A DNA stretch of 39,350 nucleotides from a virus. Below the pieces are notes generated by a model. That model was not told the origin of the DNA and ran no database searches. It saw nothing but the letters and a program-made list of their open reading frames with translations. The position numbers and the translations under genes were made by a program. The stretch is from positions 1 to 39,350 of IMG/VR virus record IMGVR_UViG_3300022200_000137, one strand, 5' to 3'. How positions within the stretch are numbered: the first letter of the stretch is position 1; every line of letters begins with the position of its first letter. Positions 32,919 to 39,350 of the stretch are shown piece after piece.

Positions 32919-33091
32919 TGAGTGGTAAGATGATTTGCCCAGAATGTAATGGGAACGGTTATATTGGTTCTGCAAAAGAACCAGACCTTGTTAGAAATTG
33001 TAATAAGTGTGACAATCAAGGTGAGATAGAAATTACTGAGGAGTCTATCAATGCTTTATTGGATAAAGTTGAATCTGCGAGGATGCAATGA
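32918..33091 (+). CDS. DnaJ-type zinc-finger protein (57 aa)
   Basis: A 57-residue protein with C7-P-E-C10-N-G-N-G (ICPECNGNGYI) and C28-N-K-C31-D-N-Q-G (NCNKCDNQGEI), two halves of the DnaJ Cys-rich finger repeat CxxCxGxG. The tail is acidic and helical. It could pull host chaperones or bind RNA; no J domain is present. The start overlaps the previous stop (TAATG) and the end overlaps the next gene as ATGA. Confidence 0.72.
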   Translation: MSGKMICPECNGNGYIGSAKEPDLVRNCNKCDNQGEIEITEESINALLDKVESARMQ

Positions 33092-33240
33092 ATATTCAAG
33101 TCAAAAGAGACATACTCACTGTAACTCATCTTAGAAAGTTAGAAGAAGAAATAGATATGTTACGTAAACAAAAAATATATCTTCAATCTAAACTAAGGGA
33201 AAAGAATGACAAAAAAGAAACCGAAGAAAACAAAAAATAA
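33088..33240 (+). CDS. Small coiled-coil protein (50 aa)
   Basis: A 50-residue protein starting MNIQVKRDILTVTHLRKLEE, followed by a Leu/Ile-spaced charged helix consistent with a coiled coil, and a Lys/Glu tail. The start is coupled to the previous stop (ATGA). Its end overlaps the next gene by 35 bases. Likely a small oligomerising protein; no further evidence. Confidence 0.55.
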   Translation: MNIQVKRDILTVTHLRKLEEEIDMLRKQKIYLQSKLREKNDKKETEENKK

Positions 33241-33343
33241 AACCTGGATAGTGGAAGGCTATTACTATGATGGTAAGAATGCCTACACTTATCTCAGGGA
33301 TCCTAAAACATTTAAAGAAAAACGAATAAAAGGAATAGCATGA
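33206..33343 (+). CDS. Small basic protein (45 aa)
   Basis: A 45-residue protein, starting at the ATG after AAGGGAAAAG, with an N-terminal run of Lys and Pro (MTKKKPKKTKNKTW) and a Tyr-rich middle (EGYYYDGKNAYTYL). It overlaps the coiled-coil gene in another frame. A nucleic-acid-binding role would fit the basic run, but this is a guess. Confidence 0.5.
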   Translation: MTKKKPKKTKNKTWIVEGYYYDGKNAYTYLRDPKTFKEKRIKGIA

Positions 33344-33480
33344 CTCCAAAACAACGACGACTAAAAAATTTTCAAAAATCAAGGACAATAGTGAAAATAA
33401 AAAGAATAGTATTTGGTATAATTTTTATATCAGCAGCTATTTTTTCATTAGCAATATTATTAAGGAGTTTAAATGATTAG
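33340..33480 (+). CDS. Small single-pass membrane protein (46 aa)
   Basis: A 46-residue protein with a basic N-terminal part (MTPKQRRLKNFQKSRTIVKI) and one membrane helix at about 23-41 (IVFGIIFISAAIFSLAILL), so the N-terminus would stay in the cytoplasm by the positive-inside rule. Start overlaps the previous stop as ATGA, and the end overlaps the next gene. Function unknown; small lysis or holin-like protein is possible. Confidence 0.58.
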   Translation: MTPKQRRLKNFQKSRTIVKIKRIVFGIIFISAAIFSLAILLRSLND

Positions 33481-34953: not shown

Positions 34954-35656
34954 ACAAACTAAATGTAGTAAAGGATCTTTTATTCATTTAGAGAATGATA
35001 AATATATTCCAGAGTCTTTAGTTAAATATGATGGCTGGGAAAATGAAATCTATGATGAATGTAAAAAATTTTTAAAACCAGATTCTAATATTATAGAAGT
35101 AGGTGCACATATTGGCACACATTGTATTCCATTATCTAAATTAATTCCTCAAGGATTTATTTATGCCTTTGAGATACAAAGATTTATACATCAATTACTA
35201 TGTACTAATATTATATTAAACAATTCTGGTAATGTTCATACCTATCAAGAAGCAGTATCTAATTACAATGGTGAAGTTAAAGTAGGTTTAGTTGATCACA
35301 ATCATCATGACAATAGTGGTAATGTAAAATTTTTAGATTTAATATTGGATCAAGGTTATCCTTTACCTGTTACAACTTTAGATCATAAGTTTAAATTTTT
35401 AAAAAAATTAGATTTAATTAAAGTGGATGTTGAATGTCATGAGCTGCAGGTCTTACAAGGTGCCTATGAACTCATTAAAAAACATAAACCTATTATTGTA
35501 ACTGAATACCATACGATTAAAACTAAACACACTAACGGTAACAAAACTGATATTATAAATTTATTTCCTAATTACAATTGGCGAGAAGTCATCGGTGAGT
35601 ATGAATTAAATGATAAGTTAGTTAAAAATTTTAATATGATAGGAGAACCTAAATGA
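34943..35656 (+). CDS. FkbM family methyltransferase
   Basis: A 237-residue protein with the FkbM pattern: motif I EVGAHIGTHC (52-61), acidic end of strand two YAFEIQR (74-80), and the characteristic KVDVECHELQVLQGAYELIK, followed by PIIVTEYH. FkbM enzymes O-methylate sugars and other small molecules with S-adenosylmethionine. It overlaps the HNH gene by 11 bases and the nuclease by 4, so all are translated as a unit. A role in glycan methylation to evade or modify the host surface is plausible inference. Confidence 0.85.
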   Translation: MNLKQTKCSKGSFIHLENDKYIPESLVKYDGWENEIYDECKKFLKPDSNIIEVGAHIGTHCIPLSKLIPQGFIYAFEIQRFIHQLLCTNIILNNSGNVHTYQEAVSNYNGEVKVGLVDHNHHDNSGNVKFLDLILDQGYPLPVTTLDHKFKFLKKLDLIKVDVECHELQVLQGAYELIKKHKPIIVTEYHTIKTKHTNGNKTDIINLFPNYNWREVIGEYELNDKLVKNFNMIGEPK

Positions 35657-36345
35657 AGTTAAATAGTTTATATGAATACCCGACATCAAGCAGAGCATTA
35701 TATAATGGAGAGAGAATGTATGATGTAGCTAGTGAGACTAAATTACCATCGGTTACAACTATATTATCCGCAACACAGCCGCCTGAAAAGAAGGCATCTT
35801 TAGCTGCGTGGGCTGCTAGAGTAGGCGTTGATGCAGCTGATAAGATCAGAGATGATGCTGCAGCTAGAGGGACTATTATGCACAATATACTTGAATCATG
35901 GATCAAGGACCAACCACACGTAGATTTGACAGAAACTGGCCAATTAGCAGAGAAAATGGCTTATCAAATCCTCATAAATGGCCTTAGAGACCGTTTAAAT
36001 GAATATTGGGGTATGGAGGTCACATTGTACTATCCTGGGCTTTATGCGGGCGCTACGGACGTTGTAGGGCTATATGAGGGAGCAGAGAGTATTGTAGACT
36101 TTAAACAATCTAATAAACCTAAAAGGCGTGAATGGATTGAGGATTATAAGTTACAATTAGCGGCATATGCATTAGCTCATAACGAAGTTTATGGAACTAG
36201 TATTAATAAAGGTGTTAATTTAATCTGTACTAAAGATTGTTATTTTCAGAAATTTGAGTTTGATGGTAATGAATTTAGACAGGCTAAGTTTGATTGGCTT
36301 AGAAGAGTGGACCAGTATTATAATGAAAAGGATAAGAATGTCTAG
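35653..36345 (+). CDS. PD-(D/E)XK nuclease, RecB/Cas4-like exonuclease
   Basis: A 230-residue protein with all elements of the RecB-like nuclease core: GTIMH (73-77), a conserved acidic E122, AGATDVV (D136), DFK (149-151) and YKLQLAAY (Q168). It is likely an exonuclease in recombination or host DNA breakdown, as in other phages, working with the AEP primase, helicase and SSB-like protein. The start ATG overlaps the FkbM stop (ATGA). The GC content of the middle of the gene is visibly higher than surrounding small genes. No Cys cluster is evident, so the Cas4-type Fe-S site is missing. Confidence 0.9.
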   Translation: MKLNSLYEYPTSSRALYNGERMYDVASETKLPSVTTILSATQPPEKKASLAAWAARVGVDAADKIRDDAAARGTIMHNILESWIKDQPHVDLTETGQLAEKMAYQILINGLRDRLNEYWGMEVTLYYPGLYAGATDVVGLYEGAESIVDFKQSNKPKRREWIEDYKLQLAAYALAHNEVYGTSINKGVNLICTKDCYFQKFEFDGNEFRQAKFDWLRRVDQYYNEKDKNV

Positions 36346-36502
36346 AAATATAAAAATACAGACGGATGAGTTGGACAATATTAAGGTTGCATACGACAAG
36401 GCCGATGGATCACGGAACAAGGACCAGTTGAAAAAAGAATGGTATGATAAGCTTCAATCAATTGCGGCACAAATAAGGCAGAATAAAGGCAATGCATTGT
36501 AG
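36338..36502 (+). CDS. Small protein after the nuclease (54 aa)
   Basis: A 54-residue protein from ATG 36338 (preceded by AAAGGA); a longer frame from 36254 is inside the nuclease and less likely. The sequence MSRNIKIQTDELDNIKVAYD, then KLQSIAAQIRQNKGNAL, is helical. The last codons (GCA TTG TAG) fall inside the first unit of the TGTAGG array, so the stop codon is part of a repeat. Function unknown. Confidence 0.6.
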   Translation: MSRNIKIQTDELDNIKVAYDKADGSRNKDQLKKEWYDKLQSIAAQIRQNKGNAL

Positions 36503-36834
36503 GAACTTTCCAAATAAAAAAAGTGGCTCCTAGTGCGGATTGTAGGTTTTTTAAAAAAAAGTTCCTACACTAATAAGCCGCAGTATACAACAATTCTAAT
36601 CGATTTTCAGTCCATTGTAGGGATTGTAGGGATTTTTTCGAGGGTAAGTGAAAAAAATTTTTTCAAAAAAAAGTTGGAGAGGCTCAAAACACCTACAATT
36701 TGTCGAAAATCGTCTAGAATTGGCTACTAGTGCGGCTAATCACTGTAGGAACTTTTCAAAAAAAGTTCCTACAGGACCCACAATCATTGGTATAAGCCAC
36801 TTTTTTTTCCTACAATTTTAAAAAAGTTCCTACA
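36498..36834. repeat. Array of ten TGTAGG/CCTACA units in both orientations
   Basis: This is the main part of the 411-base gene-free stretch 36503-36913. TGTAGG starts at 36498, 36541, 36616, 36625 and 36744; its complement CCTACA starts at 36564, 36692, 36768, 36809 and 36829. Five copies are longer (TGTAGGAAC or GTTCCTACA). One pair makes a perfect 14-base-pair hairpin, CTGTAGGAACTTTT at 36743-36756 and its complement at 36761-36774, loop CAAA. Another element, GGCT-C/A-CTAGTGCGG, occurs at 36525 and 36722. A/T runs separate the units. This is typical of iterons or of sites for a cooperative DNA-binding protein (origin, partition or packaging). It is not a CRISPR, because spacing is irregular. 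The rest of the gap (36835-36913) is AT-rich with no gene. Confidence 0.75.
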
Positions 36835-36913
36835 ATCACTCTAATTGTACAGCTCCAGGTTGAATTGGGACATCAAAAGATAGGATACTTAAAAATATAT
36901 GCTATAAAGGGGC

Positions 36914-37207
36914 ATGCCTAAATCCAAAAGAAAAAAGTCAAAATTTAAATCATTGATTATCGATAAGAAGAGATATTACTTCTATCGTATAGTGTGGTTA
37001 GATATCTTAGGGGATAGTGGGCACGCAAACGCTGAAGAATTTAATAACATGAAACCTGCAGAGATGGTTAGTTATGGATATGTTTTTTATAAAGATTCTA
37101 AAGTAGTAAAAACTTTTGCAAGTTATGATTCAAAAGAAGAATGTTTTAGTGATCGTAATGTATTCCCAGCAGGATGTATTGTTAGATTGGAGAAAATTAA
37201 TCTATAA
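36914..37207 (+). CDS. Conserved hypothetical protein
   Basis: A 97-residue protein with a basic N terminus (MPKSKRKKSKFKSLIID), then IVWLDILGDSGHANAEEFNN, MKPAEMVSYGYVFYKD and FSDRNVFPAGCIVRLEKI. The last two blocks are ones I recall from marine phage hypotheticals (YGYVF-x(6)-VKTFASYD and SDRNVFP). ATG follows AAAGGGGC at a short distance. The 3' end overlaps the convergent terminase gene by 11 bases. Function unknown. Confidence 0.7.
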   Translation: MPKSKRKKSKFKSLIIDKKRYYFYRIVWLDILGDSGHANAEEFNNMKPAEMVSYGYVFYKDSKVVKTFASYDSKEECFSDRNVFPAGCIVRLEKINL

Positions 37208-37760
37208 CTTCTGATGAAATCTCTTCTGATTCAATATCTATATGTTTTGGTAGTGTACGCTCTGATGACGACTTTGTATTTTTTACTTTATCTTTAAATT
37301 CTTTATGAGCAACACCTTCTAATATTGGAGAGTATTGATCTAATACATCTGCAATTCTACTATCTAATTCCTCTTCAGATAAATCATCTAACTTACCAGT
37401 TCTAATAATCTTTTGTTCAACATATAATCCAGCAGCTTTACCTCTAGCAACTTCAGCATTGATAGCAGCTGTCCAAGCTTTGGCATCCAATGCATCATTT
37501 CTCATTTTACCTAAATGCATTAAGTGTGATTCAAAATTGATATCATATTTTTTTAAAATTTCTTGTCTAAGCTGACCAATGTATTGTGCTACTAAGGGAT
37601 ATAGTTTTGGGTTCTGTAATTCTGATGCTGTTACATGAGCTCTGTCTTCAGAATAAGCTGCAGCAATAGCACATTGAGTAGCTGTTTTTCTACCTTCATT
37701 GTAAACTAATTCTTGAGCAAATTTAATTTGCTTTGGTGTTAATTGCTTCGATAATCCCAT
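37197..37760 (-). CDS. terS: Terminase small subunit
   Basis: A 187-residue protein on the minus strand with the terminase small-subunit opening LSKQLTPKQIKFAQELVYNE, followed by a helix-turn-helix (TATQCAIAAAYSEDRAHVTA, then SELQNPKLYPLVAQYI). It recognises the packaging site and presents DNA to the large terminase. The large subunit is not in the window. Facing left, opposite to nearly all virion genes, it is set apart from the packaging motor genes. The C-terminal part is acidic and Lys-rich. Its 3' end overlaps the plus-strand gene by 11 bases. Confidence 0.85.
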   Translation of the reverse strand: MGLSKQLTPKQIKFAQELVYNEGRKTATQCAIAAAYSEDRAHVTASELQNPKLYPLVAQYIGQLRQEILKKYDINFESHLMHLGKMRNDALDAKAWTAAINAEVARGKAAGLYVEQKIIRTGKLDDLSEEELDSRIADVLDQYSPILEGVAHKEFKDKVKNTKSSSERTLPKHIDIESEEISSEVID

Positions 37761-37798
37761 GTGTCGTTTTGTCGCATTTGTAAGTATTGACTATTAAC

Positions 37799-38576: not shown

Positions 38577-38688
38577 CGTCGCAGCCAGGCTGATAGTGCT
38601 TGTGGGCGGGACCCACCCTCTCCCTCTCTCTACTTGTGGCTGTGGTAATGCTTGTGGGCTATGAGGACTAATGCCTTTTTCCAGGCAC
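38577..38688. repeat. Non-coding stretch with GCTTGTGGGC repeats
   Basis: No gene is supported here. GCTTGTGGGC occurs at 38598-38607 and 38650-38659. The first lies in a small hairpin GTGGG-CGGGA-CCCAC. A pyrimidine run (CCCTCTCCCTCTCTCT) follows. The same ten bases occur twice more at 39267-39276 and 39321-39330, flanking the right end. Confidence 0.6.
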
Positions 38689-39078: not shown

Positions 39079-39097
39079 ATTCACCTCCGTTGTTAAA

Positions 39098-39125
39098 TTG
39101 ACATCCTACAATATCCCATAACAAT
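39098..39125 (+). promoter_or_regulatory. Candidate rightward promoter at the right end
   Basis: TTGACA (39098-39103, perfect), 16-base spacer, AACAAT (39120-39125, four of six). It resembles the one at 32062-32090: both share TTGACATC and CCATAACA. It would direct transcription out of the window to the right, towards the missing packaging and head genes. Alternatively, with 15 bases of spacing, TAACAA is the -10. Confidence 0.5.
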
Positions 39126-39161
39126 AAGGCATAAATGTGGCAGCGTGAAAAATATTTTAAG

Positions 39162-39170: not shown

Positions 39171-39229
39171 GGCTTGTGCCTGTGACCTTGTACCACGGCC
39201 CATGCGACAATTTGCCTGTCAAGTGCATG

Positions 39230-39247: not shown

Positions 39248-39350
39248 TTGTCGCACCCAGGAGAGAGCTTGTGGGCGAGGCCCACCCAATCGCCTTCGGC
39301 GCTTTCCCGTTGAGGAAAGTGCTTGTGGGCTATCCGGGCTTGTGGCTTTC

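Follow-up and report, generated by a model that had tools for sequence, protein, structure and literature searches.

A conserved array of short sequence words, lying near the terminase small subunit (TerS) gene of a SAR11 phage, occurs at the same place in related phages with a different word, and between lineages the word has been replaced in concert at most sites, in place, with the spacers staying similar. The array is interpreted here as a putative pac-type packaging site which is bound by TerS and whose word co-evolves with its reader. This reading is given a probability of about 0.5, on the basis of the position of TerS, its SPP1/SF6-type fold and two matched pairs in which recognition helix and word differ together.

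The window, comprising the whole analysed stretch of 39,350 nucleotides, belongs to a SAR11 (Pelagibacter) phage of the HTVC023P/HTVC027P/023Pt_psg01 type, as judged from distant DNA and protein matches. Its first part (positions 1-1113) has a GC content of 48 %, as against about 31 %, and codes for a glycine-rich protein. The array is flanked by an exonuclease operon on one side and a small conserved gene on the other, near the TerS gene, with the following features:

35653-36345, plus strand: PD-(D/E)XK exonuclease, upstream neighbour of the array, whose lineage also tracks the word
36496-36836, no strand assigned: whole array, ten TGTAGG in both orientations within a long imperfect inverted repeat and A/T tracts
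36498-36506, plus strand: word 1, TGTAGGAAC, spanning the TAG stop codon (36500-36502) of the ORF before the array
36541-36546, plus strand: word 2, TGTAGG
36561-36569, minus strand: word 3, TGTAGGAAC
36616-36621, plus strand: word 4, TGTAGG, in tandem with word 5 at a step of 9 bp
36625-36630, plus strand: word 5, TGTAGG
36632-36674, no strand assigned: A/T-tract core, resembling the core of relatives with other words
36692-36697, minus strand: word 6, TGTAGG
36743-36774, no strand assigned: words 7 and 8, a hairpin with 14-bp perfect arms
36786-36793, plus strand: ATTGGTAT, one mismatch from the word-independent box GTTGGTAT
36806-36814, minus strand: word 9, TGTAGGAAA
36826-36834, minus strand: word 10, TGTAGGAAC
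36898-36909, plus strand: extended -10-like motif TATGCTATAAAG ahead of the small gene, recognised by eye and missed by the consensus scan
36914-37207, plus strand: small conserved pelagiphage gene, phrog_25889
37197-37760, minus strand: TerS, phrog_51, PF03592 (Terminase_2), with an SF6/SPP1 TerS-like fold, the proposed reader of the array
37611-37652, minus strand: codons of the TerS recognition helix region, residues 37-50 (model helix 41-49)

The ten copies of TGTAGG between 36498 and 36834, five per strand, compare with about 0.2 expected in 337 bp from the density outside the array, in agreement with the count given in the initial annotation. Five of them, as stated there, extend to an exact TGTAGGAAC (36498 and 36744 on the plus strand; 36561, 36765 and 36826 on the minus strand), and a sixth copy, at 36806, carries one mismatch. 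The array likewise does begin inside the stop codon of the preceding gene. In all, the window contains 36 copies of TGTAGG (mean of shuffles 14.3, maximum 26), the other 26 being dispersed, and this genome-wide count shows that the word is not dense outside the array, which answers the concern that it might be equally frequent elsewhere. The description of the locus as the longest gene-free stretch is doubtful: it covers 411 bp (36503-36913), less than the interval 32919-33472, provided that a 66-aa minus-strand ORF in that interval is spurious. Absent from the initial annotation were the inverted repeat (36496-36836), of which the outer 14 bp are perfect and the inner 65-nt arms are 75 % complementary, and the strong single-strand folding of the array, which lies far above that of shuffles (z -10.5 for DNA and -10.3 for RNA). 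A AATAAGGCANAAATGTGGCA-like motif precedes the array (36465-36495) and recurs at 39123-39143, upstream of a minus-strand ORF near 39080; variants of this motif are found upstream of the arrays in relatives.

Using a de novo word score against dinucleotide shuffles and a minimum of at least four copies, arrays were called in 53/76 distinct loci with this TerS, while 23/76 had none at the threshold used. Among the loci having the small gene but no such TerS, arrays were called in 0/13. The array thus appears, from these loci, to follow TerS rather than the small gene, although this link is an association and not proof, as the two groups of loci differ in phylogeny. The phrog_25889 gene is found widely across several pelagiphage types, whether or not this TerS family is present, and its product carries a strongly conserved FSDRNVFP motif. 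It was rejected as reader of the array, since it occurs without arrays in HTVC026P-like phages and shows weak residual covariation in whole genomes. The array is followed in 027-type phages by the small gene and then by TerS on the opposite strand. HTVC023P-type phages have TerS in the reverse orientation and ahead of the small gene, and their CTAGGAAA array, with copies mostly in the same orientation, lies directly upstream of TerS. The exonuclease of the latter phages lies about 13 kb from the array, which is still by TerS.

Each array contains between 4 and 12 copies of one word, in both orientations. These words include TGTAGGA, TGTAGTA, TGTTACA (HTVC027P), TGTGACA, TGTTCCA, TGTGCCA (023Pt_psg01), TGTCGCA, TTGTACC, TCTACCGC and CTAGGAAA, among others. 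The expectation that relatives would carry the same array was thus borne out as to its place, but not as to its word. For example, the aligned arrays of loci L056 and L398 carry TGTCACA and TGTAACA, respectively, at most sites with a spacer identity of 84 %, and one copy in L056 keeps the other letter and is intermediate-like. Spacer identity is 70 % between L079 and L355 (TCTACCGC and TGTGCCA) and 58 % between the window and L007 (TGTAGG and TGTAGT). Same-orientation neighbours are 8-11 bp apart in 231/389 cases, with further peaks at 20, 32, 43 and 53 bp, which indicates that they lie on one face of the helix. Conservation of site geometry across all words was considered and discarded: the mean of 3.11 is a modest excess over that of gap-shuffled nulls (2.82) and about equal to that with reversed order (3.06), and the geometry claim is therefore limited to close pairs. 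A word-independent box, AAGTGTTGGTAT, accompanies the words, and its short form GTTGGTAT occurs in 28/58 non-redundant relative arrays, while IHF-like sites show a weak excess only. In most of 18 genomes, word counts beyond the array come close to those expected, TGTCGCA in G002 being the clear exception. The array by TerS frequently ranks as the strongest two-strand word cluster in a record, in near-complete as well as partial genomes.

Other motifs occur in the same region. Many 027-type genomes (G001, G002, G005, G007, G015, G017, G018, G026 and G027) have TGCGACA-N3-TGTCGCA palindromes in the promoter-like gaps that separate TerS from TerL; these palindromes resemble an operator of a separate regulon, and the window contains only half-sites (39203-39209, 39249-39255 and 37770-37776). 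Dense direct repeats of the GCTTGNNGCTTG type lie 1.4-2.5 kb past the array, on the far side of TerS, in many 027-type phages (L029: 16505-16640 and 17390-17430; L091: 6350-6500), and the form in the window, GCTTGTGGGC with flanking inverted repeats, is found at 38598, 38650, 39267, 39321 and 39338.

The array shares several traits with pac sites. It adjoins the TerS gene in both 027-type and 023-type phages and is made up of repeated boxes with A-tracts, while the neighbouring TerS is a helix-turn-helix small terminase (PF03592, phrog_51). In an AlphaFold2 model built with 74 aligned relatives, TerS has an N-terminal helix-turn-helix with the recognition helix at residues 41-49, and its best PDB matches are the SPP1-like/SF6 small terminases 3zqq, 4zc3 and 2cmp, with Foldseek probabilities of 0.98-1.00, yet none at E <= 0.001. 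The breaks of near-complete contigs are scattered relative to TerS, a pattern that is compatible with circular permutation without proving it, and one of these contigs has a 127-bp end overlap.

Within TerS, the part that word similarity tracks is the recognition helix (partial Mantel 0.47); the C-terminus shows no such relation (-0.15), even though it is encoded closer to the array than the helix is. All 34 of the 34 TGTGCCA arrays accompany a TerS with a one-residue deletion before the recognition helix, compared with 9/81 of the other arrays. In the matched pairs L287/L394 and L286/L041, TerS is nearly the same outside the helix, while helix and array word are both replaced. In matched pairs (L287/L394), residues 37-53 (37602-37652) vary more than the remainder of TerS, which suggests, at the level of sequence, that the recognition helix may be under diversifying selection. 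The proposal that the TerS helix alone explains the word appeared strong at first and was weakened once the exonuclease and a VRR-type nuclease served as controls. Word similarity correlates with the exonuclease (r 0.56-0.67) and the VRR-type nuclease (0.54-0.57) as well as or better than with the TerS helix (0.41-0.49), so that shared descent could account for most of the helix-word association. Among 19 genomes, the correlation with the word is 0.66 for the exonuclease, 0.59 for the AEP primase, 0.57 for PolA and 0.25 for whole TerS, which contributes nothing beyond the backbone. Furthermore, the word switches by one or two bases with the helix unchanged or nearly so in L056/L398, L271/L384 and L079/L090, and TGTGCCA is common to two strongly diverged TerS groups whose helix residues differ. 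Considering that the backbone predicts the word, that such helix-unchanged switches occur and that diverged TerS groups share TGTGCCA, TerS is retained as the best candidate at about one half.

The initial annotation had proposed an iteron-type origin or a cooperative binding region for an initiator, repressor or partition protein. Cooperative protein binding is well supported by the same-strand helical phasing, conserved position and concerted word change. An iteron origin, a repressor operator or a partition site has no specific support: no gene for an initiator, repressor or partition protein adjoins the array, whose conserved neighbour is TerS, the word does not extend beyond the array, and a DnaA box is absent (58 arrays). 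The main rival of the packaging-site reading, though an unlikely one, is nevertheless a phage replication origin, in which the words would be iterons for an initiator encoded in the phage replication module, placed by an A/T-rich unwinding region and co-evolving with that initiator. The A/T core (36632-36674) is suited to unwinding and, with the phased repeats, is origin-like, and in the 19 genomes the word tracks the replication backbone (exonuclease, AEP primase and PolA) better than whole TerS. There is also a precedent in the PLE satellites, where the DNA-binding domain of RepA covaries with the origin (PMC8263062). However, the neighbours of the array are an exonuclease, a small gene and TerS, with no initiator gene among them, and the best-covarying well-sampled family, the exonuclease, is no obvious initiator. 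The DnaA box TTATCCACA occurs in 0/58 non-redundant arrays and the looser TTWTNCACA in only 3/58. The GC-skew switch anticipated in the initial annotation was looked for, but no sign switch was found at the array: the skew falls and then rises again overall, and the cumulative skew maximum lies at or near the end of each record rather than at the array. In HTVC023P, moreover, the array remains with TerS though the exonuclease is elsewhere.

An improbable alternative is that the words are operators through which a phage transcription factor acts on the promoter ahead of the small gene (in HTVC023P-type phages, ahead of TerS), as a late-gene switch. The promoter-like TGCTATAAG motif 3' of the array in relatives and the position of the array upstream of TerS in HTVC023P-type phages agree with this, but the distance from the array to the -10-like motif downstream of it is about 60-400 bp, a consensus scan returned no significant promoter signal, and the word is without enrichment elsewhere in the genome. 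A genome-wide regulon or multi-site repressor was rejected, since most of the 18 genomes show no enrichment of the word beyond the array. The strong RNA fold (z -10.3) would suit an RNA element or terminator ending the exonuclease operon, but this is very improbable given that DNA folds equally well, that searches for an Rfam family or terminator-like site at the array found none, that words change rather than structure alone, and that HTVC023P-type arrays are mostly of one orientation. Least probable of all is a mobile or fold-back (MITE-like) insertion with the inverted repeats as its ends. While the long imperfect inverted repeat with 14-bp perfect ends resembles such an element, no second copy was found in the record, a clear target duplication was not seen, and the arrays of relatives at the same place, with similar spacers and other, swapped words, lead to its rejection.

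Under the packaging-site reading, each helix-turn-helix domain of a TerS ring would contact one word, and the several phased words over about 340 bp would wrap around or align on the ring, with the complex nucleating cutting by TerL at the array. Multiple TerS subunits on phased words would sum weak single contacts, and a shift in TerS specificity would then select for a matching change at every site, so that every lineage would come to have a packaging dialect of its own. A broader proposal, put forward tentatively and below even odds, is that the packaging sites of SAR11 phages form a family in which position is conserved and layout overlaps but the word is interchangeable. The dialect of each lineage would be read by a hypervariable TerS helix and kept changing by conflict, for instance as phages evade site-directed nucleases or satellites that hijack packaging.

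Repeat-containing packaging sites have been described before. In a non-exhaustive literature search, the sections consulted of the comparative paper on HTVC023P-type phages (PMC9599517) make no mention for these phages of a packaging-site family with interchangeable words changing in concert. How a small terminase finds its own genome has been described as not fully understood after decades (PMC7672466), and the array offers a test of how packaging machines recognise their own genome. The dataset comprises some 146 distinct TerS N-termini, each with a linked array word, and the pairs with similar spacers and a swapped word, as well as a swapped helix in two cases, amount to a natural specificity-swap experiment. 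This experiment has taken place in some of the most abundant phages of the ocean, and it opens genome recognition by terminase to direct testing. Should the array be read by a replication initiator instead, these data would reveal a family of origins not recognised so far.

Clusters of short words read by a small terminase around a bend are represented by the pac site of phage P1, with its hexanucleotide elements and PacA, and by the R-sites of lambda cosB. Unlike P1 pac, the word of the array is without Dam sites, and unlike both systems the array has a whole family of alternative words. The stoperators of cluster A mycobacteriophages are asymmetric short sites whose sequence differs between related phages and which are scattered over the genome. 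The word of the array similarly differs between related phages, but nearly all genomes tested have it concentrated in a single array. The statement in the initial annotation that no described element of this form is known has to be qualified in view of the pac site of SPP1/SF6. In SPP1, this site includes three sets of direct repeats that run across the TerS promoter, and, as here, short repeated boxes and bent or A-tract DNA extend over a few hundred bp beside or across this promoter and the TerS (G1P) is of the same fold family (PMC4737164). What sets the array apart from this site is that a single word, different from lineage to lineage, is repeated 4-12 times and in both orientations. Unlike what is proposed here, the isolated DNA-binding domain of SF6 TerS was reported to bind pac with little sequence preference, the boxes barely affecting binding (PMC4737164). 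Finally, the array resembles the origin iterons of the PLE satellites and their RepA (PMC8263062) in that repeat and reader domain covary and switch between related elements, but the PLE element is a satellite origin with an identified initiator, whereas the neighbour of the array is a terminase.
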